DNA from: Burkholderia sp. WP9
GTDB taxonomy: Bacteria > Pseudomonadota > Gammaproteobacteria > Burkholderiales > Burkholderiaceae
Assembly: GCF_900104795.1 (NCBI RefSeq)
Contig: NZ_FNTG01000002.1
Location: 496,001-560,000, forward strand
Length of the DNA: 64,000 bases
Reading direction: 5' to 3'
The notes below the pieces were generated by a model that was given only the letters and a program-made list of their open reading frames with translations, ran no database searches and had not been told where the DNA came from. The position numbers and the translations under genes are program-made. The stretch's first letter is position 1, and each line of letters begins with the position of its first letter. Below are positions 35,748 through 47,858 of this stretch, piece by piece.

Positions 35748-36164
35748 TCAATGAACCATCGTGACCGGCGTGACCGTGCGCCTCGACAGCGACGCGAGCA
35801 CGGCCAGCCTGCGAAAGAAGCCCATATGGCTCGCGTCGATCACCATCACGTCGGGCCGGGTCGTGGCCGCGTAATCCGCAACCGCTTTCGTGCGGTGGCC
35901 GAAGACGCGTTTCCAGCGGTAGGGCACACCGGCTTCTTCGAGAATCGTGCGGGCGTCGATCAACGCTTTCAGCATGACCTGCTTCTCGTGACGCAACAGG
36001 GAGCTACGCGAGTGGAAGGCTGCCGCCCGCCCCTCCCCGACCGGTTCGAGGACTTCCAGCAGCTCGACCTCCGTGACGCCACGCTCGAGGAACATGAACG
36101 CGGCGTAGCGCGCAGCCTCGACGGCGCCGCTATGGTCGAGGACGGGAATCAGCATTCGTATCAT
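35748..36164 (-). CDS. Universal stress protein family
   Basis: A 138-residue protein of the UspA fold: a first strand MIRMLIPVLDHSG, an amphipathic helix, and a final part HMGFFRRLAVLASLSRRTVTPVTMVH. The usual ATP-binding pattern GxxGxxxxxxGS is not clearly kept, so nucleotide binding is uncertain. AGGA lies eight bases before the ATG at 36164. It is convergent with the efflux operon, with 17 bases between stops. Confidence 0.85.
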   Translation of the reverse strand: MIRMLIPVLDHSGAVEAARYAAFMFLERGVTEVELLEVLEPVGEGRAAAFHSRSSLLRHEKQVMLKALIDARTILEEAGVPYRWKRVFGHRTKAVADYAATTRPDVMVIDASHMGFFRRLAVLASLSRRTVTPVTMVH

Positions 36165-36222
36165 CGAGAAATCCTGGGGGTCGATCAGTGTGTAACTCGA
36201 GCTTAGCCAACGCCGCATTAAC

Positions 36223-36255
36223 GCCGCGTAAAAAGTATCAGCCTTTTTACGCGGC
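36223..36255. terminator. Perfect 13-bp hairpin between the small-gene pair and the stress protein
   Basis: GCCGCGTAAAAAG (36223-36235) pairs perfectly with CTTTTTACGCGGC (36243-36255) around a 7-base loop. It follows the 114-residue gene and precedes the stress protein on the same strand. The A/T run lies inside the stem rather than after it, so it may stop transcription in either direction or shape processing; it is not a textbook terminator. Confidence 0.5.
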
Positions 36256-36280
36256 CCGCCGAGATACGGCCAGTCCGCCG

Positions 36281-36625
36281 TTATGCCTGGATCGCCGCCG
36301 GATTGAGTTCGACATGCAGGATCACGAGCCAGCGTTTCGGGCAGTCCGCGGCGATCTGCAGATCCTGCTTGCCGTCGGCGCCCTTCTTCACGAAACCCTT
36401 TTCCCGCGCGAAACCGAAAGCACGTCGCGCGTCGGACTGTAGCCACAGCGTCACCAGCCCGCAGGTCAGACAGCTGAAAATCCACATGGAGTCGGACGGC
36501 AGCGCGGCGTCGAGTTGCTGGGTGGCGTACGTGAAAAGCGTCGTGAGAACCTGGTTGGTGACGAAAACGATGGCGATGAGCTTGCACAGCCCCCTGAACA
36601 TCATGGCCTGTCTTGACGGTGTCAT
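36281..36625 (-). CDS. Small membrane protein of unknown function
   Basis: A 114-residue protein with two hydrophobic stretches (LIAIVFVTNQVLTTLFTYA and WIFSCLTCGLVTLWL) and a C-terminal soluble part (FAREKGFVKKGADGKQDLQI). It starts six bases after the stop of the preceding 71-residue gene, so the two are probably co-translated. ATG codons at 36604 and 36601 are alternative starts. No family was recognised. Confidence 0.6.
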   Translation of the reverse strand: MTPSRQAMMFRGLCKLIAIVFVTNQVLTTLFTYATQQLDAALPSDSMWIFSCLTCGLVTLWLQSDARRAFGFAREKGFVKKGADGKQDLQIAADCPKRWLVILHVELNPAAIQA

Positions 36626-36631
36626 GGCTTG

Positions 36632-36847
36632 TCAGACGCCGAGCACGCGGCGCGCTTCGAGTTCGGCCAATTCCAGCGCTTGCGCGGAACTGGGCATCGG
36701 CCGTCCGCAGCCGCGCCCGGTGATCTGCTGTATTTGTTTGTCGTGCCGGATGGTCGTTACGCGCAAGGCGCCTTTGAACATGTGACCCGGAGCGGGAAAC
36801 ACGCAAGCCTCGACAGTCACGCCGCCCTTGGTTTGTTTGAATGCCAT
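36632..36847 (-). CDS. Small soluble protein of unknown function
   Basis: A 71-residue basic protein (MAFKQTKGGVTVEACVFPAP...). The ATG at 36847 follows AGGGGTTCAT, a good Shine-Dalgarno; an upstream in-frame start at 36862 is less likely. The C-terminus is helical (AQALELAELEARRVLGV). It is the first gene of a short run with the small membrane protein. No family was recognised. Confidence 0.6.
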   Translation of the reverse strand: MAFKQTKGGVTVEACVFPAPGHMFKGALRVTTIRHDKQIQQITGRGCGRPMPSSAQALELAELEARRVLGV

Positions 36848-37068
36848 ATGAACCCCTGCCAATTTCGCGGTTTTTCCACGTCGAAAAACCAGTCACTCAC
36901 TATACGGAGGACCTCGTAAAGAGCGCGAAACGATTGCAGCAGACCGCATAAAAATCCCGTGAAAGTCAACGCACGCCGACCAGCCGGTATTCCACGCCCG
37001 ACTCGGTGATGATGTGCTCGGGACGCGCCGGATTGCGTTCTATCTGCGCGTCAATTCGCTGGGTTTGC

Positions 37069-38187
37069 TCAAAGCCCTCGACCCGTGTCGAGGTAGTCCA
37101 ACGCGAGGCGCTTTTGTAGGGCACGCGCCTGGCGAAGCGTGTCGAGCAGAGCGTGCCGTGTCAGCGGGCCCAGTTCGTCTGGATTGACGTGATTGTGCAT
37201 AGGCAAGCCACGCTCATAACAGCGCTGCTGATTTTCCAGCCGAAGCTTCTGGATGAAATAAAACGCCTGTATCCACGAATCCACATCGCGCTGATCCAGG
37301 CGTTGCGCCTCTCCAGCCCGTCGAAAGCGATCCGCCGTATTGCTCGTGCGAGCGCCAAGGGCGAGGCCGTAGATCCGGGCCGCGTCGACGAACAGCGTCG
37401 CGGCGTGCAGTTTAAGATCGAGCGTGCCGGCGAATTCGCCCCCCTTCTCGACCACGAAATCACGCACCACGCCGAGCGGCGCCTTGCGCCGCAATGCGTT
37501 CTCCGTCATCTGGTAAAGAAAGCGCGGATTGTCTGGCGCGATCTCTTCGAGCCAGTCGGCGAGCGCCTCGGCCAGATCGAAGGCGCCATAGAGGGGGCGC
37601 AGGTCGAAGAAAATGCTCGCGTTGAGGAGCGCCTGCGGGTCGCCCTCGCTGATCCATGTCGCGAAGCGCTCCCGCCATTCGTGCAGGTCGAGACACCACT
37701 GCGGATTGCTCGCCATGATCTGCCCGGTGCACAAGGGAAAGCCGCAGGCATCGAGCGCTTCATTGATGCGCAGCGCAAGCGGCAACAGTTGTTTGCGCAG
37801 GGCCGTGGCGCCACCGCTGCCAGCGAAAATGATGCCGTTGTCCTGGTCGCTCGACAGCGTCTGTTCCTGACGCCCTTCGCTGCCCAGCGCGATCCAGCAC
37901 CAGCGCGCTTCCTGCATGCGTGTCCCGGCGCAGGTCAACTCGATTGCGCGGCGCGTGATCTGGTCGTTCAGCGTGGAGAAAAGTCCGGTGAGCGGTGCCG
38001 GAGCCGCCTCGCCCACCGCGCAATGCACGAGCCTGCGCACCGTCGCAGCGGCCAGTTGCAAAGACGCGGCATCGTTCGCGTCGGCTATGCTGCGATGAGC
38101 GTGTCGCAGGTCGTGCGCGAGCGCGCGACCCGCGACGGTTTGCGGGTCGAAAACAGCATCGGGCCCGGAGGTGGCGGAATCATCCAT
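37069..38187 (-). CDS. DUF294 nucleotidyltransferase-like protein
   Basis: A 372-residue cytoplasmic protein. The nucleotidyltransferase motif GSEGRQEQTLSSDQDNG (residues 102-118) has the Ser-Gly turn and the two metal-binding aspartates (114, 116) of the GlnD/DNA polymerase beta fold. The C-terminal half is the helical substrate-binding partner domain (RRAGEAQRLDQRDVDSWIQA). Many relatives add cNMP-binding and CBS domains in front; both are absent here, though a separate CBS protein is encoded at 47364. It sits 14 bases after the pseudo-kinase/exonuclease gene. The transferred nucleotide and target are unknown. Confidence 0.85.
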   Translation of the reverse strand: MDDSATSGPDAVFDPQTVAGRALAHDLRHAHRSIADANDAASLQLAAATVRRLVHCAVGEAAPAPLTGLFSTLNDQITRRAIELTCAGTRMQEARWCWIALGSEGRQEQTLSSDQDNGIIFAGSGGATALRKQLLPLALRINEALDACGFPLCTGQIMASNPQWCLDLHEWRERFATWISEGDPQALLNASIFFDLRPLYGAFDLAEALADWLEEIAPDNPRFLYQMTENALRRKAPLGVVRDFVVEKGGEFAGTLDLKLHAATLFVDAARIYGLALGARTSNTADRFRRAGEAQRLDQRDVDSWIQAFYFIQKLRLENQQRCYERGLPMHNHVNPDELGPLTRHALLDTLRQARALQKRLALDYLDTGRGL

Positions 38188-38201
38188 CGGGTGTGCACTC
38201 C

Positions 38202-40349
38202 TCAGTAGCGGATTCGCGCGTAAAGGGTCTGCTGCGCGGCATCGCGGGCATCTTTTAGCGTGACTATGCCTTTCTCCGCCAGCAAGGGGATCATCCGCAG
38301 GAACACCTCGCCGGTGACGATGGCGTCGCCGAGCGCGGTGTGCCGGCCGATCACCGGCACGCCGAGGCGCGCGGCGATCGCCTCGAGCGAGTGCCCAGGC
38401 TGATGAGGGTGGATCACCTGCGACAGGAGCAGCGTATCGAGGACCGGCTGCCTGAACGCCACGCCGGTCGTAGCTTCGAGCATTTGCAGAAATCGCATGT
38501 CGAACGCGGCGTTGTGCGCGACGAGCACGGTGTCCGCCGCAAAATCGTGGAACTGCGGCAGCACTGCTTCGACCCGCGGCTGTCCATTGAGCATTGCGTG
38601 AGTCAGGCCGTGAATACTGGTCGATTCGGCGCTCAGCGAGCCTCTCGGCTCGATCAGCCGGTCGAACGTTTCCTGCTGGAGCAATCGTCCATTGACGATT
38701 CGCAAGGCGCCGATAGAGATGATTTCGTCGCCCGCGGCGGGATCGAGCCCGGTGGTCTCGGTGTCGAACACCGTATAGCTGAGTTGCGAGAGCAGGCACT
38801 GATCGATCTCGGCGCTCTGTCCCGGCTGATGAAAAAGATCGAAATCGTAGAATTCGGGCCGGCCTGTCGGCGGCGGTGCAATATCGAGCGCACTCCGGGG
38901 CTCGGCGGCGTGCAGCATCACGCGGTAGCGCGCCCTGCCCTCGGCCGGCTCGCAACGATATACCGATTCGCCGCCGTGGCGCGCGATCACCGAATTCAGC
39001 GTAAGCGCCAGGCCCCCAGCACTGACCGGAAGCGGTGCGTGCTCCCACGCCCTTAACGTGTCCGCGGCCAACGGCGCGCCGCTCCAGACGAGATCCAGAT
39101 GCGCCAGCCGATCGGCGCGCTGCAAATCGAAGCGCAGTTCGGTCACGCCCGCGTCAGCCGCGAGCCGCCGCGATAGATAGGCGAGCGCCTGCGTCAATGC
39201 GTAACTGTCGACCCTGAGCCACAAGGTGGCGTCAATGGTGTCGCCGGCCGTGACGCGCAGTGATGCGCTCCCGATGCGCCGCAGCAGTAAAGCGATCAGG
39301 TCGGTGCCACGCATGTCTTCGAGTTCCCGACGGCTGTCCGTAGCGTTGCTGCCCTGTTGCACCGCGCGCTCGATCTGAGCGGCGAGGCGCATCGATTCGT
39401 CGCCGATGATGGCGGTAAACTGAGTCCGCTTCGCGCCGCTCATGTCCGGAAAGGTCTGGATGGTCTCGACCGCCGCGCGGATATTCGCGAGCGTTGCCCG
39501 CGTGTCTTGCGTCAGCGACTGCACCAGTGCGTCGCGCCGGTTATCCGCCTCGACGTGGCGCGTAATGTCTTCCAGCGTGAGCACGAAGCCATTGAGTGCG
39601 CGGGCGCTATCGAACACGGGCGCCATGTGCGCGCGCACGATTTGCCCGTCCGCGAGCGTGGCAACGAAGGCGCATACGGGTGGCGCCATGTCGTCGCGTG
39701 GGTCCTGCAACTGGTGCTGGATTTGTTCCAGCGCGTGCAGGACGAGACCGCTCTCGATCACGCCGAAAACCGAGCGCCCAAGCCCGATGGCCGAGACGCC
39801 CTGATGGCCGGTTCGCAGCAACTGCCTCGCGCGAGTGTTGAAAAGCAGGATACGCCCGTCGATATTGCACACCAGTACGCTCAGCGCGAGTTCCGCCATG
39901 AGCGCAGCGAGCCGGTTCTTTTCTTCGGCGAGCGCACGGTTCGCGAGTTCGATTTTTTCCTGTACGTCGTTGTGCAGCGTTTGATGTGCGGCGGCAAGCG
40001 CGTTCAGCTTCTCGACCAGAACGCGCACGTCGCGCGCGCCCCGCACCGTGATGCGGTGCCCAGGGTTGGCCGCGAGCAGCACGGCGTCTTCAGCCAGTCG
40101 CGCGACCGGTGTGATATAGGCGTCGAACAGCGCTTTCAGGCCGAAGCCCAGTGCGAACAGCAGCAGCGTTGAGAGGGCGATCCAGACCGCGGCCCGTTGC
40201 AGCAGCATCTCGCGCAACCATGCGCGCTGCGCGTTGGGGACGTCGAGCGCGAGAGACGCAAGAATCGCGGCGCCAATAAGCACCTGCACTGCGAACAGCA
40301 GTGCCAGTGCAATGCCAAACCGACGTCTGGCGATCATCGTGACGATCAT
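38202..40349 (-). CDS. Membrane HAMP-PAS-pseudokinase fused to DnaQ-type 3'-5' exonuclease
   Basis: A 715-residue protein. Two N-terminal membrane helices (about 12-35 and 53-73) are followed by a HAMP-like region (74-130), a coiled coil, and a PAS-like domain (150-265). Next comes a degenerate histidine kinase part: the H-box reads [13 protein letters not shown] where His and Pro are expected, and the N-box lacks its Asn. Residues 523-700 are a DEDDh exonuclease with all catalytic residues visible: [10 protein letters not shown] (D529, E531), [13 protein letters not shown] (D near 617), and RHTALGD (H670, D675). The start overlaps the receiver-domain stop (ATGA). It would tie nuclease activity to a membrane signal; the substrate is unknown. 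Confidence 0.85.
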
Positions 40350-40732
40350 TCGTCGCTTCGGTCATGTCGCGCGAGCAGCGAGCGCACCTGCTCGACCAGT
40401 TCCCTCGTGGAGAACGGCTTGGTGATGTACGCGTCGGCACCGAGCGCGAGGCCCTTGCTCACCTCAAGGTCGCGGCTCTTCGCCGACAACATCACCACCT
40501 TCGTTCGATTCCATGCGCTGTTTTCGCGAATCGTCTGACAGACCTCGAAGCCGTTGCGCAACGGCAGCATGACATCGAGCAGCACGAGGTCGGGTTGGAA
40601 CGCGGCCATCTGCTCAAGGGCTTGCGCGCCGTCCCGCGCAATCGCCACATCGTAGCCACACTCGGTCATCAGGAATTCCAGCGAGATGACGATGTTCGGT
40701 TCGTCGTCGACGATGAGGACTTTATAGGTCAT
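40346..40732 (-). CDS. Single-domain response regulator (receiver only)
   Basis: A 128-residue CheY-like receiver. The acidic pair D9/D10 (LIVDDEP), the phosphorylation site D53 (LVLLDVMLP), the Ser of MLSAK and the conserved Lys of YITKPFS are all present, so phosphotransfer is expected. There is no output domain. It overlaps the kinase gene before it and the pseudokinase-exonuclease gene after it by four bases each, so all three are made together. It probably shuttles phosphate or binds the exonuclease protein. Confidence 0.93.
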
Positions 40733-43500
40733 GACGTTGTCTCCTTCGCGCTCGCGAGAGGTAGCGTGAACACGAACACGGCGCCCTCTCCTTCTCCCGG
40801 CTCTCCCGGCGCACTTTCCAGCCTCAGCGTACCACCGAAATGGCGGACGATTTCCCGGCTGATCGGCAGTCCGAGGCCGGTGCCCTGCGGCTTGCCGCTG
40901 ATCGTGTCGCCTCCCTGCCGGAACTTCTCGAAGATGAGTTCCCTATCCTGCGCACGCACGCCGGGACCGTTGTCGCGCACCTCGACGCGTAGCGCTGCAC
41001 CCACCCGGACGAGCCGCACCGCGACGCGCCCGCCGGCACGGTCGCAGAACTTCGCCGCATTCGACAGCAGATTGAGCATCACCTGCATCAGACGGTCATG
41101 ATCGCCCAATACCTGCGGCACCGCGGCCGGCAGGTCCAGTTCGAGCTCGATGCGTTGTTCGGCGAACATCTGGCGGGTAGCGTTCACCGCGTCTTCGATG
41201 ACCTGCTTCAGGTCGAGCGGCTCGGCATGCCATTGCGCGCTGCCCGATTCCATCTTGGCGAGGTCGAGCACATTGTTGATGAGCCGGGTGAGCCGCTCGC
41301 TCTCCTTGATCACGATATCGAGGTATTCGCCGCGCTTCGCGGCCGGCAGATCGGGATGCTCGCGCAGGATTTCCGAGAACGCGCGGATCGACGTGAGCGG
41401 TGTGCGCAATTCGTGGGTGACCGTCGAAATGAAATCGTCCTTCATACGGTCGAGCTCGCTGAGCCGCGCGTTGGCTGCCTTGAGTTCCGCCGATGCACTC
41501 TCCAGCTCGCGCGACTTCTGCTCGAGCTGGTGGCTGTAGGCGACTACCTGAGAGGTTTCATCCAGTATCGCCATCACTTCGTTCAACCCGAGCGGCTCCT
41601 CGTCGACGACCGTCGCTATCATCGCCCGCGCCGACGCCGCGCCGATCGCCCCGGCAAGTTGCCTCTCCGCGAAGCGCACGAGGTCGGCGTCCGCGGTGGG
41701 CGAGTTCGTGCCACCACGTTCGTAGTGGAAGCGCGCGTATGCGTCGTCGGCAGCAGCTGAACCGAGGAATCGCCGCAACAGCTCAAGCACCGCTTCGGTC
41801 GAGGCGCTGCCGCGCCAGATGTCCGGGCGGAGCACGTCGCCGGTGTGCGCATAGGCGTCGACGAACAAGGCAGCCTGGGTCTTTTCCAACACGCTCTGCC
41901 CGCTTGCGAGCGACACGCCGACAAAGCCCGCGACGTTCGCCAGCATGCTCCAGAAAAGCGCATGCGAGACTTCGTCCAGTCCCTGCAGACCGAACAGTTG
42001 CCGCGGCCTGAGCCACTCGATGCCGAGCGGTCCGTGCGCGAGAAAGCCACGCGGCAACCAGCCGGATTCGGCAAACGAAGGTAGCAAGAGCGTGTAGGCC
42101 CATAGCAGGAATCCCGCGCTCAAGCCGGTCAGCGCGCCGGGCCGGGTGCCGTTTTTCCAGTAGATCGCCCCGAGCATCGCAGGCGCGAACTGCGCTACCG
42201 CCGCAAACGAAATCAAGCCGATCGAGACCAGCGCGTACGCTTCGCCGGCAAGCCGGAAATAGGCATAGCCAAGCATCATCAGCAGCACGATCGCGGCGCG
42301 CCTGATCGTGAGCAGCAGTCCGGGGAAGTTCGCGCGCCGCTCGGATTGCAGTGATTGCAGGCGTAACAGCACAGGCATCACAATGTCATTGCAGACCATC
42401 GTGCTGAGCGCGATGCTTTCGACGATCACCATGCCGGTCGCAGCCGACAACCCGCCGATGAACACGAAAAGCGTGAGCGCCAGTTGATGCGCACGCATGG
42501 GCAGCGCCAGCACGAACATGTCCGGGTCCACGGCACCGCCGGGAAAATGCATCGTTCCGCCGAACGCAATCGGCAACACGAAGACGTTGATCGCGAGGAG
42601 ATACAGCGGCAGCACCCAGACGGCTTTCGCGACGTGGTTTTCGTCCATGTTCTCCACTACGGCAATCTGGAACTGGCGGGGCAGCAGCATGATCGACAGC
42701 ATCGACAACACGATCAGTGACGCCCAACTGCCAAACGCCGCACCGCCTGCGCCTGCCTCTCCGCCATGCAGCGTCAGCAAGGCGTTCAATGCGGGGACCG
42801 CCTGCGCACGCGCAAACAGATCTCCAAAGCCATCGTAGATTCCGAACGTGACGAACGCCCCTACGGCTAGAAACGCGACGAGCTTCACGAGAGACTCGAA
42901 GGCGATCGCGGCGACCATGCCTTCGTGGCGTTCGGAAGCATCGAGGTGGCGCGTTCCGAACACAATGGTGAACGTCGCCAGAAGGAGCGCGATGTATAGG
43001 CTTGGATCCGACCACCAGGGCCCTGCTTCGGCACGCCCGCTGGCAATGCCGGTGGCATGCGTCAGGACGGCGACGCTGGCGGATACGGCCTTCAGTTGCA
43101 GCGCGATGTAAGGCACGAGTCCGACCACCGCGACCAGCGTGACGAGCCCGCCGAGCAGCGCGCTCTTGCCGTAGCGCGAAGCCATGAAATCCGCAATCGA
43201 CGTGATGTGATTGTTCTTGCTGATGCGGATCATCTTGCGCAACACGGTCCACCACAGCGCCGCCACCAGGGTGGGGCCGAGATAAATCGGCATGAAGCCG
43301 ACGCCGCTTCTGGCCGCGCGACCAACGCTGCCATAGTACGTCCAGGAACTCGCGTAGACCGCGAGAGACAGCGCGTAGACGTAGGGGCTGTTGATGATGC
43401 TCGTGCCCGCATCCGCGCGCCGGTCGCCATAAAACGCGATTGCAAACAGCACACCCAGATAGACGAGCGACGCCAGTGCAATGACCCAGCCGTCCAGCAT
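40729..43500 (-). CDS. Sodium:solute symporter-histidine kinase (CbrA/CrbS-like)
   Basis: A 923-residue sensor. Residues 1-500 form a complete SSS/SLC5-like membrane domain with about 13 helices ([33 protein letters not shown]). A linker and coiled coil (610-680) lead to a kinase core: H-box with H696 ([12 protein letters not shown]), N-box ([11 protein letters not shown]), G1 ([10 protein letters not shown]) and G2 (GTGLGLPIS). In CbrA and CrbS the transport domain senses a nutrient such as His or acetate. The ActP neighbour suggests acetate or a similar acid, but the ligand is inferred. It lies one base after the small membrane gene and overlaps the receiver gene. Confidence 0.92.
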
Positions 43501-43501
43501 C

Positions 43502-43750
43502 TCAGTCCTTCGATGCCGGTTCGGATCCGACGGCCCGCGTGGATGTTTTACGCGAAGCCCCCTGTTCGACGATGACGGCAAGCAAAACGATGAAAAGCGC
43601 CCACGCGGCGAACAGATATCCGTACAGGAGCGGAAGGCCCAACCAGGTTCGCGTGTCGTTGAACAACGCCAGCAAAGGATAGTTGAACACCAGCCAGCCC
43701 AGCACGAACAAAGCGATCAGGCGCTGGCCGGCAAGGGTGCGATGCGACAT
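43502..43750 (-). CDS. Small two-helix membrane protein upstream of the sensor kinase
   Basis: An 82-residue protein with two membrane helices (LIALFVLGWLVFNYPLLALF and LLYGYLFAAWALFIVLLAVI) and a short polar tail. GGGAG lies six bases before the ATG at 43750; in-frame ATGs at 43756 and 43843 are weaker. Its TGA is separated from the kinase ATG by one base, so the two are co-translated. Its position and size recall small partners of SSS transporters (as DUF485 is for ActP), which would make it a subunit of the sensor; that is inference. Confidence 0.75.
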   Translation of the reverse strand: MSHRTLAGQRLIALFVLGWLVFNYPLLALFNDTRTWLGLPLLYGYLFAAWALFIVLLAVIVEQGASRKTSTRAVGSEPASKD

Positions 43751-43910
43751 GGGCATCTCCCGCAAAAGGATTTGCGAACCATCTTTCAGCAGCGGCGATA
43801 TTGCGGGTACCTGAACAATAGCGTCACGACGGCTGCGCGCCATGAACGCCCGGTTGCGTTACGAGAAGCTCCGGATGGTTTCGAGGCTTCTCGTGCCGCG
43901 TCCGCCCAGG

Positions 43911-45575
43911 TCAATGGCCGGATGCGCCCGACGCACCGATACCGGTTTCCGAACGGACTTTCTGGGCCGGATACCCCGCACGGTCGATGCGTGCGCGCTC
44001 GCTCCTGTCCAGAATCGAGAACAGCCAGATCCCCACAAAACCCGCGGTCATGGAAAACAGAGCGGGCGACGTGTAGGGGAAAATCGCATCCTTGTGACCG
44101 AGCACATCCACCCACACCGACTTGGAGACGAGCGTCAGCCCAACCGCTGTCACCAGCCCGAGAAAGCCACCGATGGTAGCACCGCGTGTCGTGCAATCCT
44201 TCCACAACACCGACATGAACAGCACCGGAAACGTTGCCGATGCCGCGATCGCAAAGGCCAGCGAGACCATGAAGGCGATGTTCTGCTTCTCGAACGCAAT
44301 GCCAAGGATCACCGCCACGATGCCCAGCGCTACCGTCGTGATCCGCGAAACAGCGAGTTCCTTTTCGCTGGCGGCCTTGCCCTTCTTGAACACCGTCGCG
44401 TAGAGATCGTGCGATACCGCCGAAGCGCCGGATAGCGTCAGTCCGGCGACAACGGCGAGGATCGTTGCGAAGGCCACGGCGGAGATGAAGCCGAGGAACA
44501 CGTTGCCGCCCACTGCGTTCGCAAGATGGATGGCTGCCATGTTGTTGCCGCCCAGCAGCCCGCCGAGCGCATCCTTGTACACCGGATTGGTGCTGACGAG
44601 AACGATGGCGCCGAAGCCGATGATGAATGTCAGCAGGTAGAAGTAGGCGATCCATGTGGTTGCCCAGAACACGGACTTGCGCGCCTCCTTGGCGCTCGGC
44701 ACGGTGAAGAAGCGCATCAGAATATGCGGCAGGCCTGCTGTGCCGAACATCAGCGCCATGCCGAAGGAGATCGCTGAAATCGGATCCTTGATAAAGGCGC
44801 CCGGACCCATGATTGCGTCCTTCTTCGCATGAACCTCCACCGCCTTGGCGAACAGCGCTTCCGGATTGAAGTGAAACTGCGCCAGCACCATGAACGCCAT
44901 GAAGCTCGCGCCCGCCAGCAGCAAGCCCGCTTTGATGATCTGAACCCATGTGGTCGCCGTCATGCCACCGAACAGAACATAGACCATCATCAAACTGCCG
45001 ACGATCACGACCGCGACCCAGTATTCCAGACCGAACAGCAGCTTGATCAACTGGCCTGCGCCGACCATCTGCGCGATCAGGTAAAACGCCACCACAACCA
45101 GCGTACCGGATGCCGCGAACACGCGGATTGGCGTCTGTTGGAAACGATATGCGGCAACGTCGGCGAAAGTGAAGCGGCCAAGATTACGCAGGCGCTCCGC
45201 CATCAGAAAGGTAATGACCGGCCATCCGACCAGAAAGCCGATCGAATAGATCAGTCCGTCGTAGCCATTCAAATAGACCGCCGCCGAAATGCCGAGAAAC
45301 GACGCAGCGGACATATAGTCACCGGCGATGGCAAGCCCGTTCTGGAAGCCCGTAATTCCGCCACCCGCCGTGTAGAACTCTGCAGCCGATTTTGTCTTGC
45401 TCGCGGCCCACTTCGTGATGAACAGCGTGAACACAACAAAAACAGCGAACATCGATATCGCTGTCCAGTTGGTCGGCTGCTTCTGCAACTGGCCGAGGTC
45501 ACCCCCTGCAGCCCAGACCGTGCCGGCCACGGCACACAGCGTCAATGCGCACAAACCACGTTGGAATTTAGTCAT
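43911..45575 (-). CDS. actP: Cation/acetate symporter ActP
   Basis: A 554-residue SSS-family transporter with about 13 helices and a cleavable-looking N-terminal segment ([16 protein letters not shown]). The family marks [33 protein letters not shown] and [17 protein letters not shown] are typical of ActP, which imports acetate and other short acids with Na+ or H+. The ATG at 45575 overlaps the DUF485 stop (TGATG). It lies 160 bases before the small membrane gene of the sensor operon on the same strand. Confidence 0.94.
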
Positions 45576-45880
45576 CACAGCACCTCACTGCGAATTTGAG
45601 CGGTGAGGTCATCGAATTCCCGGTTGGCGCGCCGAACGTAGATGCCCGTAATGGCCACAGTAAAAACGATCACGAACAGCCCGATCGGGATGCCCCAGGT
45701 CATCACGCCCGAGCCAATCCTGGCGGAAAGCAGATTCTTGCCAAATGCAACCAGCAGGATGTAGCCGTAGTAGACGACCATCATCATGGCCGCCAGGAGC
45801 CAACCGTACGATGAACGCGTTGCCACCAGTTGTCGGTACTTGGGATTCGACTCTATCCTTTGAACAAGATCTTCTTCCAT
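45575..45880 (-). CDS. yjcH: DUF485 membrane protein (YjcH type)
   Basis: A 101-residue protein with two membrane helices ([19 protein letters not shown] and [19 protein letters not shown]) and charged ends. It has the DUF485 pattern, including [16 protein letters not shown] and [10 protein letters not shown]. It is the usual partner of actP and is translationally coupled to it. GGAGACACGAAAA precedes the ATG. Confidence 0.93.
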
Positions 45881-46328: not shown

Positions 46329-47282
46329 TTAGCGGTCCATCTGCTGGATGCCCGCCAGTCGCCATGCCTGGTCGCCCTGTGTGCTCCTGACGATGTTCCA
46401 GATCTCCTGGAACGGCTGGGCGGTCTGTGCGTCGTCTTCCCGCATCTGACCGTAAAAGCGGACGCTGACGAGCGTTTCATTAACGGTGTCTTCCGTGCCC
46501 AGCACTTCGGCTTCGAGTTGCGTCACGTCCGTACGGCTCGGCTCGTGACCCCGTGCCTCCAGGTCCTGTTTGAGCCGCATGAACATCTCCGGCGTGGTCA
46601 GTTCGAACAGATCGCCTTGCTCATTGCGGTCCCACGCGCCCTGAAGACGCATGAACATAGCCTTCGCCGTTACCAGCAATGCAGCCTGGTCCGCGAGCGC
46701 GGGCTCCCGTGCGTTCACGCTACCCGCCGCGCCAGTCGATCCCATCGCGGCTCGTTGCCAGTCGCGCAAGTTCGTGTCAGGCCGCGATTGTCCAACCTGA
46801 TTCAGAAACGGTGAGTTGTTCGATTGCTGCCGGTTCCCTGAATAAGCCAGATTCGGTCGACGCCGATTGGCGATAAAGCGGAACAGCATCACGCCGGCAA
46901 GCACCACCAGGCCGATCAACAAAGCATTCGAGAGCATTTGCGCCAGCCCTTCAGCCAGACCAAACGATGAGAGCAACGCCGCAATGCCCAGGCCGGCGGC
47001 GAGACCAGCGAGCGGGCCCATCCAGCGGCCGGCACCGGTGGCCGCTGGTGTCTGCCCTGCCTGCTGCGCGGGTTGCGCCTGCTGGCTGCGTTGCCCCTGG
47101 CCGGACGGCGACGCCGCCTGCGACTGTCGCCCAATGCTTTGGCTGCCGCCGACGCGCTTCGCCTCGGCGTCGTTCGAGGCCACGGCTCCAAGAGCAAGAA
47201 GTCCGGCCAGACCGAGCGCCGCTGTTCCGCGCGTCACCGCGCCGGCAGCACTTCGAAGACGATTGATGATCTGCGTGTACAT
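46329..47282 (-). CDS. Tim44-like domain protein, membrane-anchored
   Basis: A 317-residue protein. It has a signal or anchor (GLAGLLALGAVASNDAEA), a Gln/Ser/Pro-rich linker with GQGQRSQQAQPAQQ, two hydrophobic helices (about 90-130, GLAAGLGIAALLSSFGLAEG and ALLIGLVVLAGVMLFRFIA) and a C-terminal Tim44-like domain (about 195-315, LLVTAKAMFMRLQGAWDRNE; VRFYGQMREDDAQTAQPFQE). The bacterial family is of unknown function. The ATG at 47282 follows AAGAGGCTTCAT. Confidence 0.88.
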   Translation of the reverse strand: MYTQIINRLRSAAGAVTRGTAALGLAGLLALGAVASNDAEAKRVGGSQSIGRQSQAASPSGQGQRSQQAQPAQQAGQTPAATGAGRWMGPLAGLAAGLGIAALLSSFGLAEGLAQMLSNALLIGLVVLAGVMLFRFIANRRRPNLAYSGNRQQSNNSPFLNQVGQSRPDTNLRDWQRAAMGSTGAAGSVNAREPALADQAALLVTAKAMFMRLQGAWDRNEQGDLFELTTPEMFMRLKQDLEARGHEPSRTDVTQLEAEVLGTEDTVNETLVSVRFYGQMREDDAQTAQPFQEIWNIVRSTQGDQAWRLAGIQQMDR

Positions 47283-47363
47283 ATGAAGCCTCTTTCGGTA
47301 AGTCAGGGAACTGCCCGCATGGCGCGCCACTCGGGCAGCGCAAAAACATTACGAACAGTAATA

Positions 47364-47858
47364 TTATTGACTGGTCAAACTCGCAGCCCGTCGCGCCTGC
47401 AATCCACTTTGGGCAGCCTGAAGGCTGTTGCCGTGGATATAGTGCTCGAGCTGCTGGATGGTCTGTTCCTGCTCGACAATCAGGTTCTGGATGAGGTCAC
47501 CGATCGACACCATGCCGATCACCTGCGCTGCGGCAATGACAGGCAGATAGCGGATCCGGTCCGCCGTCATGAGCGCCATGCATTCTTCGGTTGTCTGGTC
47601 CGGACTGACGTAGCGCACAGTCGTCGACATGATGTCGCGCACAGGTGTATGCCGCGACGAGCGGTCCATCAGAACGATTTTTCTTGCGTAGTCACGCTCT
47701 GTCACGATGCCGGCGATACGACCGTGGTGTGCGACGATCAGCGCGCCCACCTTCCGGTGAGCCATCACCGCTATTGCGTCGTAAACCGAAGCGGATGCCT
47801 GAGTCGACCACACTGTCTGTGACGCTTTTGAGCGAAGGAGCTGCGCAACCGATGCCAT
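47364..47858 (-). CDS. CBS-domain protein
   Basis: A 164-residue protein with two CBS motifs (about 10-65, VYDAIAVMAHRKVGALIV; 75-125, MALMTADRIRYLPVI) and a helical tail. Paired CBS motifs bind adenosine nucleotides and act as energy sensors. GAGGTGACAT precedes the ATG. It follows nhaR divergently and lies upstream of the Tim44-like gene on the same strand. Confidence 0.9.
   Translation of the reverse strand: MASVAQLLRSKASQTVWSTQASASVYDAIAVMAHRKVGALIVAHHGRIAGIVTERDYARKIVLMDRSSRHTPVRDIMSTTVRYVSPDQTTEECMALMTADRIRYLPVIAAAQVIGMVSIGDLIQNLIVEQEQTIQQLEHYIHGNSLQAAQSGLQARRAASLTSQ

Follow-up and report, generated by a model that had tools for sequence, protein, structure and literature searches.

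In Burkholderia sp. WP9 a gene block beside acetate transport combines an SLC5-type sensor kinase, a lone receiver, a pseudokinase-exonuclease and a DUF294 nucleotidyltransferase: a candidate two-component output at an enzyme

Gene content of the locus

We analyzed a window of 64,000 nucleotides (nt) from Burkholderia sp. WP9 (assembly GCF_900104795.1, contig NZ_FNTG01000002.1, positions 496,001 to 560,000 of the forward strand), in whose numbering all coordinates below are given. On its minus strand, at 37069-45880, lies a block of seven genes, read right to left, whose products in the order of transcription are YjcH, ActP, an 82-amino-acid (aa) membrane protein, an SLC5-type histidine kinase, a receiver, a membrane PAS/pseudo-histidine-kinase/DEDDh exonuclease that we call DQ, and a DUF294 nucleotidyltransferase that we call NT. 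The features, listed from the first gene transcribed, are:

45575-45880, minus strand: yjcH (DUF485, 101 aa, two hydrophobic segments; Pfam DUF485 E 5e-34), with a 4-nt overlap with actP
43911-45578, minus strand: actP, cation/acetate symporter (555 aa; NCBIfam NF006903, 963.7 bits against a cut-off of 750)
43502-43750, minus strand: 82-aa two-helix membrane protein directly 5' of the kinase (two hydrophobic segments; conserved cluster of open reading frames (ORFs))
40729-43500, minus strand: SLC5-type sensor histidine kinase (923 aa; HisKA and HATPase_c by Pfam, symporter kinship by profile comparison)
40346-40732, minus strand: lone receiver (128 aa; Response_reg E 2e-28)
38202-40349, minus strand: DQ (715 aa), with N-terminal hydrophobic segments, PAS-like part, pseudo-histidine-kinase and DEDDh exonuclease (RNase_T E 2e-35 at residues 527-683)
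38868-39602, minus strand: pseudokinase part of DQ (residues 250-494; profile match to the VicK-like kinase 4i5s)
38832-38861, minus strand: linker motif RPE[YF]YDFDLF of DQ (residues 497-506; alignment of 121 DQ proteins)
38301-38771, minus strand: DEDDh exonuclease domain of DQ (residues 527-683; five catalytic residues kept)
37069-38187, minus strand: NT, DUF294 plus DUF294_C nucleotidyltransferase (372 aa; DUF294 E 4e-44, DUF294_C E 1e-40)

The genes are tightly packed, with spacings of -4 nt (YjcH/ActP), 160 nt (ActP/82-aa ORF), 1 nt (82-aa ORF/kinase), -4 nt (kinase/receiver), -4 nt (receiver/DQ) and 14 nt (DQ/NT), four of the six junctions being a 4-nt overlap or a 1-nt gap. An initial annotation, made from the letters of the window, had described the kinase, a receiver without output, DQ and NT as a chain joined by overlaps or tiny gaps, and all of these parts are found, the receiver consisting of Response_reg alone with no output domain found. 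That annotation had yjcH-actP follow the chain; as the block is transcribed right to left, the pair lies upstream of it and not downstream. It also left unnamed the 82-aa ORF, which is conserved in 64 of 91 well-flanked DQ loci (defined below). The start of NT is at 38187; a 659-aa ORF in the ORF listing begins inside DQ.

The sensor kinase, the small membrane protein and the receiver

The symporter-like character that the initial annotation had given to the kinase is borne out by profile comparison: Pfam SSF gives no match at E<1, but hhalign, comparing a profile of the kinase family (28 sequences) and one of ActP/SSS (11 sequences), gives 94.8% probability across columns 99-542. A hybrid kinase of 1182 aa that carries PAS_7, HisKA, HATPase and receiver domains shares 44% identity with residues 1-665, the alignment extending through residue 665, beyond the membrane part; SLC5/STAC hybrid kinases have a layout like that of the 1182-aa protein, according to passages of a published account (PMC9100948). 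No STAC-named Pfam match to the window kinase was obtained, whether Pfam holds a STAC model having been left unchecked, and Pfam found neither a PAS domain nor a C-terminal receiver in its 923 aa. The His, N and G boxes are intact in all 83 family members scoring at least 900 bits, and by these residues the protein is predicted to be an active HisKA/HATPase kinase. When the genome was searched with the hybrid kinase (E<=1e-60), the window kinase was returned together with one match restricted to the kinase-receiver part.

The window kinase resembles the SLC5/STAC kinases CrbS (MxtR), CbrA and RpuS in the fusion of a symporter-like membrane part to a histidine kinase and in having acetate genes nearby. 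It differs from CrbS/CrbR in lacking both PAS and C-terminal receiver, by which identity with CrbS itself is ruled out, and in its neighbor, which, as far as the gene beside the kinase goes, is a lone receiver and not a LuxR-type regulator. The 82-aa ORF matches no Pfam family at E<1, and its cluster is conserved in 65 of 90 loci. A small two-helix membrane ORF directly before a sensor kinase is likewise reported in passages on CbrX-CbrA (PMC6591292), which give 58 aa for CbrX; the likeness is one of position and helices. In the receiver family the phospho-accepting residue, Asp53, is kept in all 89 members of at least 140 bits. A by-eye comparison of interface residues between the kinase and the pseudokinase was judged not discriminating.

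DQ combines a dead kinase with a DEDDh exonuclease

Profile searching with 40 DQ proteins gave matches to histidine kinases of solved structure, 4i5s (residues 250-494, E 8e-18), 4u7n and 3dge, over the PAS/DHp/CA part and to DnaQ/PolC exonucleases at the C-terminus, and Pfam adds weak PAS matches. Near its N-terminus DQ has two hydrophobic segments, a hint of membrane anchoring, and the PAS-like part contains another, weaker one. Across an alignment of 121 DQ proteins of at least 400 aa, none of the 118 residues at the phospho-acceptor position is His (Glu 77, Asp 18, Gln 11, others 12; three shorter proteins are gapped here), and the N-box positions carry Asn in 1/121 and 3/121. The residues D529, E531, D617, H670 and D675 of the exonuclease are each present in 119 of the 121, are missing in L197 and L198 only (our labels for loci), and are all found in the window protein; on these five catalytic residues the domain is assigned to the DEDDh exonuclease superfamily. 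The earlier description of a membrane pseudokinase carrying a DnaQ-like exonuclease thus stands, with the acceptor His gone and the DEDDh residues kept. Between the two parts runs the linker RPE[YF]YDFDLF, in which F503 is found in 121/121 and D502 in 120/121; a loose form of the pattern matches 107/121, and visual inspection of 25 shorter relatives showed no such linker ahead of their exonuclease domain.

DNA polymerase III epsilon was considered as an identity for DQ and rejected, the protein falling below the equivalog cut-offs (TIGR01406, 114 against 222.7; NF004316 (PRK05711), 109.1 against 196); it does pass the broader subfamily model TIGR00573 (108.5 against a cut-off of 71.5). Because the acceptor His is lost beside an intact kinase and receiver, DQ is unlikely to be a phosphate relay; the retention of the DHp-like module argues that this module may still act as a docking and dimer part.

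The nucleotidyltransferase and its pairing with an exonuclease

The active-site motif GSxxRxE...DQD is present in all 86 members of the NT family of at least 150 bits. The DUF294 model matches the transferase domain of the genome's own GlnE at 23.7 bits (cut-off 21), and DUF294_C overlaps GlnD_UR_UTase in the same protein at 19.9 bits, under its cut-off of 22.5. Because these matches fall on GlnE, the catalytic domain of NT is, by sequence, related to protein nucleotidyltransferases, and the second domain is probably so as well. NT hence resembles GlnE/GlnD in its transferase domain and, below cut-off, in its GlnD_UR_UTase-like helical domain; unlike them, it is a single transferase, and the candidate remover is a DEDDh enzyme in a separate protein. 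No solved-structure relatives of the transferase domain were found at E up to 1, the weak structure matches of NT being mostly to CBS proteins via N-terminal columns.

Pfam found no CBS or cyclic nucleoside monophosphate (cNMP) domain in the window NT, whereas longer relatives carry CBS (L033) or cNMP plus CBS (L090). Tandem NT genes stand behind DQ in L090, L091, L101, L103 and others, as a short form (no CBS, L091) and a long one (cNMP plus CBS, L090). Near yjcH in the window, a two-CBS-domain protein (47364-47858, minus strand) is encoded next to a Tim44-like one (46329-47330, minus strand), both upstream of yjcH; the window NT is without the CBS that its relatives carry.

In a search from the NT side, the NT profile was found in 55 of 185 class genomes (E<=1e-40), from which a set of 40 NT-centered regions in 39 genomes, mostly top-scoring matches, was drawn. 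In 28 of these 40 loci the best NT has a DEDDh exonuclease on its own strand no more than 400 nt away, and when any NT is counted the figure is 33; these exonucleases are mostly stand-alone proteins of ~230 aa. Since most genomes hold 1-4 exonuclease-domain matches, chance adjacency should be rare, an argument made with no formal control.

Two alternatives take the nucleotidyltransferase away from protein targets. In the first, the exonuclease trims or degrades RNA (mRNA decay, 3' tails) under kinase-receiver control, and NT extends RNA ends or regulates separately. The top structure matches of the exonuclease domain, namely nucleic-acid exonucleases (PolC, DnaQ epsilon, ExoX), favor this reading, and passages of a Pseudomonas putida study propose mRNA degradation by the exonuclease PP_0353 (PMC9927547). 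The transferase is GlnE-like, however, with no CCA or poly(A) polymerase model among its Pfam matches up to E 1, and the pairing with a GlnE-like enzyme would be left unexplained. We regard an RNA role as rather unlikely. The second alternative has NT make a small nucleotide or adduct that the DEDDh domain degrades as oligoribonuclease does, with the CBS domains of longer NT forms sensing adenine nucleotides. It draws on the aforementioned CBS and cNMP domains, and on a DEDD oligoribonuclease that, in passages of PMC6390093, hydrolyzes pNP-TMP (p-nitrophenyl thymidine monophosphate) as well as short RNA. With no receptor-like gene seen among the recurrent clusters of DQ loci, and with DUF294_C resembling, below cut-off, the GlnD_UR_UTase of protein-modifying enzymes, such a second messenger appears improbable to us.

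Distribution and conserved gene neighborhoods

Strong matches to DQ were recovered from 10 of 100 genomes in an order sample (one a fragment at a contig edge), 14 of 274 in a class sample and 41 of 299 in a phylum sample, the genome of the window being included in each. Among named genomes, at least 570 DQ relatives were confirmed, of which the best 80 were kept. We assembled 121 DQ loci (the window, 9 from the order sample, the 80 from named genomes and 31 from the class and phylum samples, some sharing a genome); 91 are well-flanked, with at least 5 kb on either side. The loci are mutually related, the 80 being those of highest similarity, so they do not count as independent trials.

Among the 91, we observed the receiver in 70, the kinase in 65, the 82-aa protein in 64, an SSS-type transporter in 63, NT in 60 and acs in 46 (at least 400 bits; 48 at a looser threshold). 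Either acs or an SSS-type transporter is present in 69, in keeping with the acetate context first assigned to the window. The receiver lies directly 5' of DQ in 70/91, that is, in every locus with an above-threshold match to it. No locus has the kinase without the receiver, and a receiver-DQ pair without a nearby kinase is seen in five. In the phylum sample, 41 genomes have DQ and 43 the full-length kinase, with both in 33, DQ only in 8 and kinase only in 10 (Fisher p 1.5e-27, uncorrected for kinship); the kinase count derives from 54 matched genomes, 11 of which were dropped because the match was confined to the symporter portion of a longer hybrid kinase, a partial match in genome G696 being kept. 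Where DQ seemed isolated, all four genomes checked have kinase, receiver and DQ together at another place, accompanied by NT in three.

A recurrent betaproteobacterial order is acs > 82-aa > kinase > receiver > DQ > NT > DUF4212 > SSS (e.g., L033, L051, L118), and in another class of the phylum L174 has acs > yjcH > actP > NT > receiver > DQ > 82-aa > kinase. The constant adjacency of receiver and DQ makes the receiver the likely ligand of DQ. A third alternative would reduce the arrangement to co-regulation, the acetate genes being co-expressed in an operon while the receiver acts elsewhere without touching DQ; receiver-kinase units without an adjoining DQ in other genomes, and DQ copies without a receiver, are what this account would lead one to expect. 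Yet in the nine loci where the kinase has moved behind DQ the receiver still directly precedes DQ (9/9), and DQ keeps its DHp-like module despite the loss of the His. We consider mere co-regulation unlikely.

Certain further neighbors were recorded. In many betaproteobacterial loci (L050-L053, L056 and others) acs has, upstream and divergent from it, a fumarase-type gene of class I; the cluster counts 26 loci, and Pfam gives Fumerase domains for L103. The module is also held by L048, L064, L102 and L121, which come from Chloroflexi-type genome records, with transfer or binning error both possible. Near receiver-small ORF-kinase units lacking DQ elsewhere in the phylum (L206, L212, L214) stands an ORF resembling an XRE-type regulator of the RamB kind.

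Origin of the block

The initial annotation had pointed to a survey of gene order across the family, naming absence of linkage in relatives as a point against its chain. Conservation across the family is not what we found: at E<=1e-60, the genome of the window is the only one with DQ, both among 117 genomes of the genus and among 150 of the family. Linkage is hence lacking among near relatives and clearly present among distant ones.

Because DQ is absent in the other near relatives sampled, yet present in distant ones, the simplest account is that the block was probably acquired horizontally. The closest operon found, in Cupriavidus necator A5-1 (L301), has the order yjcH > actP > 82-aa > kinase > receiver > DQ > NT > acs and is collinear with the window at 76-82% DNA identity. 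The same genome has a second DQ-NT copy, L042, with acs-yjcH-actP-DQ-NT and no nearby kinase. In a midpoint-rooted tree of 117 DQ sequences, L301 being left out, the window protein groups with L042 (FastTree support 0.999), Oxalobacteraceae-type sequences joining next (1.0). Likewise, the window ActP is 92-93% identical to two copies from C. necator A5-1 and at best 84% to ActP of the genus, for which 28 of 57 other genus genomes gave a match. Given the genus and family distribution, the ActP identities, the DQ tree and the Cupriavidus collinearity, vertical inheritance is unlikely. Base composition of the block gives no clear signal. The acs gene adjoins NT in Cupriavidus and not in the window, three acs-like genes of the genome being on another contig.

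Overlapping the end of NT at 36969-37082 on the minus strand is a 38-codon open stretch, a possible scar beside the acquired block; it may be the C-terminus of a regulator of the OmpR/KdpE type, with no Pfam match in it. Farther downstream of NT lies an ORF with a universal stress protein domain (35748-36896, minus strand).

Relation to known systems

The closest known relative of the NT-exonuclease pair is PP_0354/PP_0353 of the MxtR/ErdR regulon of P. putida. Passages of the study cited above state that the two genes form an operon, that ErdR binds the PP_0354 promoter and that homologs adjoin actP and yjcH in P. aeruginosa (PMC9927547); according to passages of another, the CrbS/R regulon of P. 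fluorescens includes Pflu5625, whose domains are cAMP-binding, CBS and nucleotidyltransferase (PMC5715377). Going by the published domain names, we infer that PP_0354 is the counterpart of both Pflu5625 and NT, and Pflu5625 likewise of NT. As far as the same passages go, these systems share with the window a CBS/transferase-type gene with an RNase_T-family exonuclease gene, control by an SLC5-type sensor kinase and, in P. aeruginosa, adjoining actP/yjcH (PMC9927547, PMC5715377); the window DQ, ending 14 nt before NT, parallels the PP_0354/PP_0353 arrangement, as do the exonuclease genes paired with NT in the NT-centered loci. They differ in that those passages describe no pseudokinase fusion and have transcriptional control via ErdR/CrbR, whereas in the window a lone receiver replaces the DNA-binding regulator and NT is without CBS or cNMP domains.

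A proposed signalling operon with an enzymatic output

We propose, at a little short of even odds (roughly 45%), that the block is a signalling operon linked to acetate, or more broadly to short-chain monocarboxylates, whose output is an enzyme and not a promoter, the kinase acting through the receiver to gate DQ, and DQ opposing NT. In this scheme the SLC5-type kinase would sense a substrate, or the flux thereof, and autophosphorylate; it would then phosphorylate the lone receiver, as the intact residues and constant pairing of the two suggest. The receiver may in turn dock on the dead DHp-like part of DQ, consistent with receiver-DQ adjacency and the loss of the His, and the conserved RPEYYDFDLF linker might carry an allosteric switch to the DEDDh phosphodiesterase domain. 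NT would put a nucleotide on a target and DQ take it off, as the pairing of NT and exonuclease genes suggests, the target probably being one that limits monocarboxylate use, e.g., the transporter or Acs. As the partner of DQ is GlnE-like, opposition of writer and eraser is the most economical reading. In passages of the P. putida study, growth on pyruvate suffers from loss of the exonuclease PP_0353 or of actP-I and not from loss of PP_0354 (PMC9927547), which would be expected if the mark were inhibitory. The control of a nucleic-acid or nucleotide signal that the initial annotation put forward is likewise hypothetical.

A more specific version of this proposal, which we consider unlikely as it stands, is a reversible protein nucleotidylylation switch: NT would attach a nucleoside monophosphate (NMP) to a tyrosine in a protein of transport or activation, and the DEDDh domain, gated via receiver and pseudokinase, would erase it. 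We know of no DEDDh enzyme that removes a protein-bound nucleotide, and none was found as an eraser of protein nucleotidylylation in the open-licence PubMed Central literature searched. The chemistry is nevertheless plausible since pNP-TMP, like NMP-tyrosine, is an aryl ester of a 5'-nucleotide, and since RNase Z offers a precedent of a ribonuclease that removes AMP from protein, in passages of PMC12663964; RNase Z differs in being an endonuclease of the metallo-hydrolase superfamily whose writer is SelO.

Several observations weigh against the proposed operon function. According to passages of the P. putida study, PP_0354 deletion left growth on acetate, succinate and pyruvate unimpaired, as PP_0353 deletion did on acetate and succinate (PMC9927547); no activity for an NT-exonuclease pair was found in the open-licence PubMed Central literature searched. 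Neither receiver nor kinase is present in 21 of the 91 well-flanked DQ loci, six of which have none of the genes searched for; a few of the 21 give weak, sub-threshold receiver matches. NT is in the locus in just 60/91, and no NT gene adjoins DQ in 13 loci checked, mostly of Thauera, Aromatoleum and Azoarcus type. From the NT side, 7 of the 40 NT-centered loci, one at a contig end, have no such pair. The receiver-small ORF-kinase unit occurs apart from DQ in some other genomes of the phylum, and the receiver may have targets besides DQ. Finally, in four DQ proteins a His occurs three residues N-terminal to the acceptor position; we read it as out of register.

Significance

SLC5 kinases, and an operon of a CBS/transferase-type gene and an exonuclease gene in an acetate regulon, are already known; for the set of SLC5 kinase, lone receiver, pseudokinase-exonuclease and NT, no description was found in the open-licence PubMed Central literature searched. 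Two-component systems mostly end at promoters. The conserved output here resembles a phosphodiesterase fused to a pseudo-histidine-kinase, which, if true, would constitute a two-component output without transcription. Should the eraser reading be correct, the short list of enzymes known to strip nucleotides from proteins would gain the DEDDh enzymes. The proposal also offers a concrete hypothesis for the puzzle of why MxtR/ErdR and CrbS/CrbR control a CBS/transferase-type protein, plus an exonuclease in P. putida, and the module predicts epistasis in P. putida KT2440.

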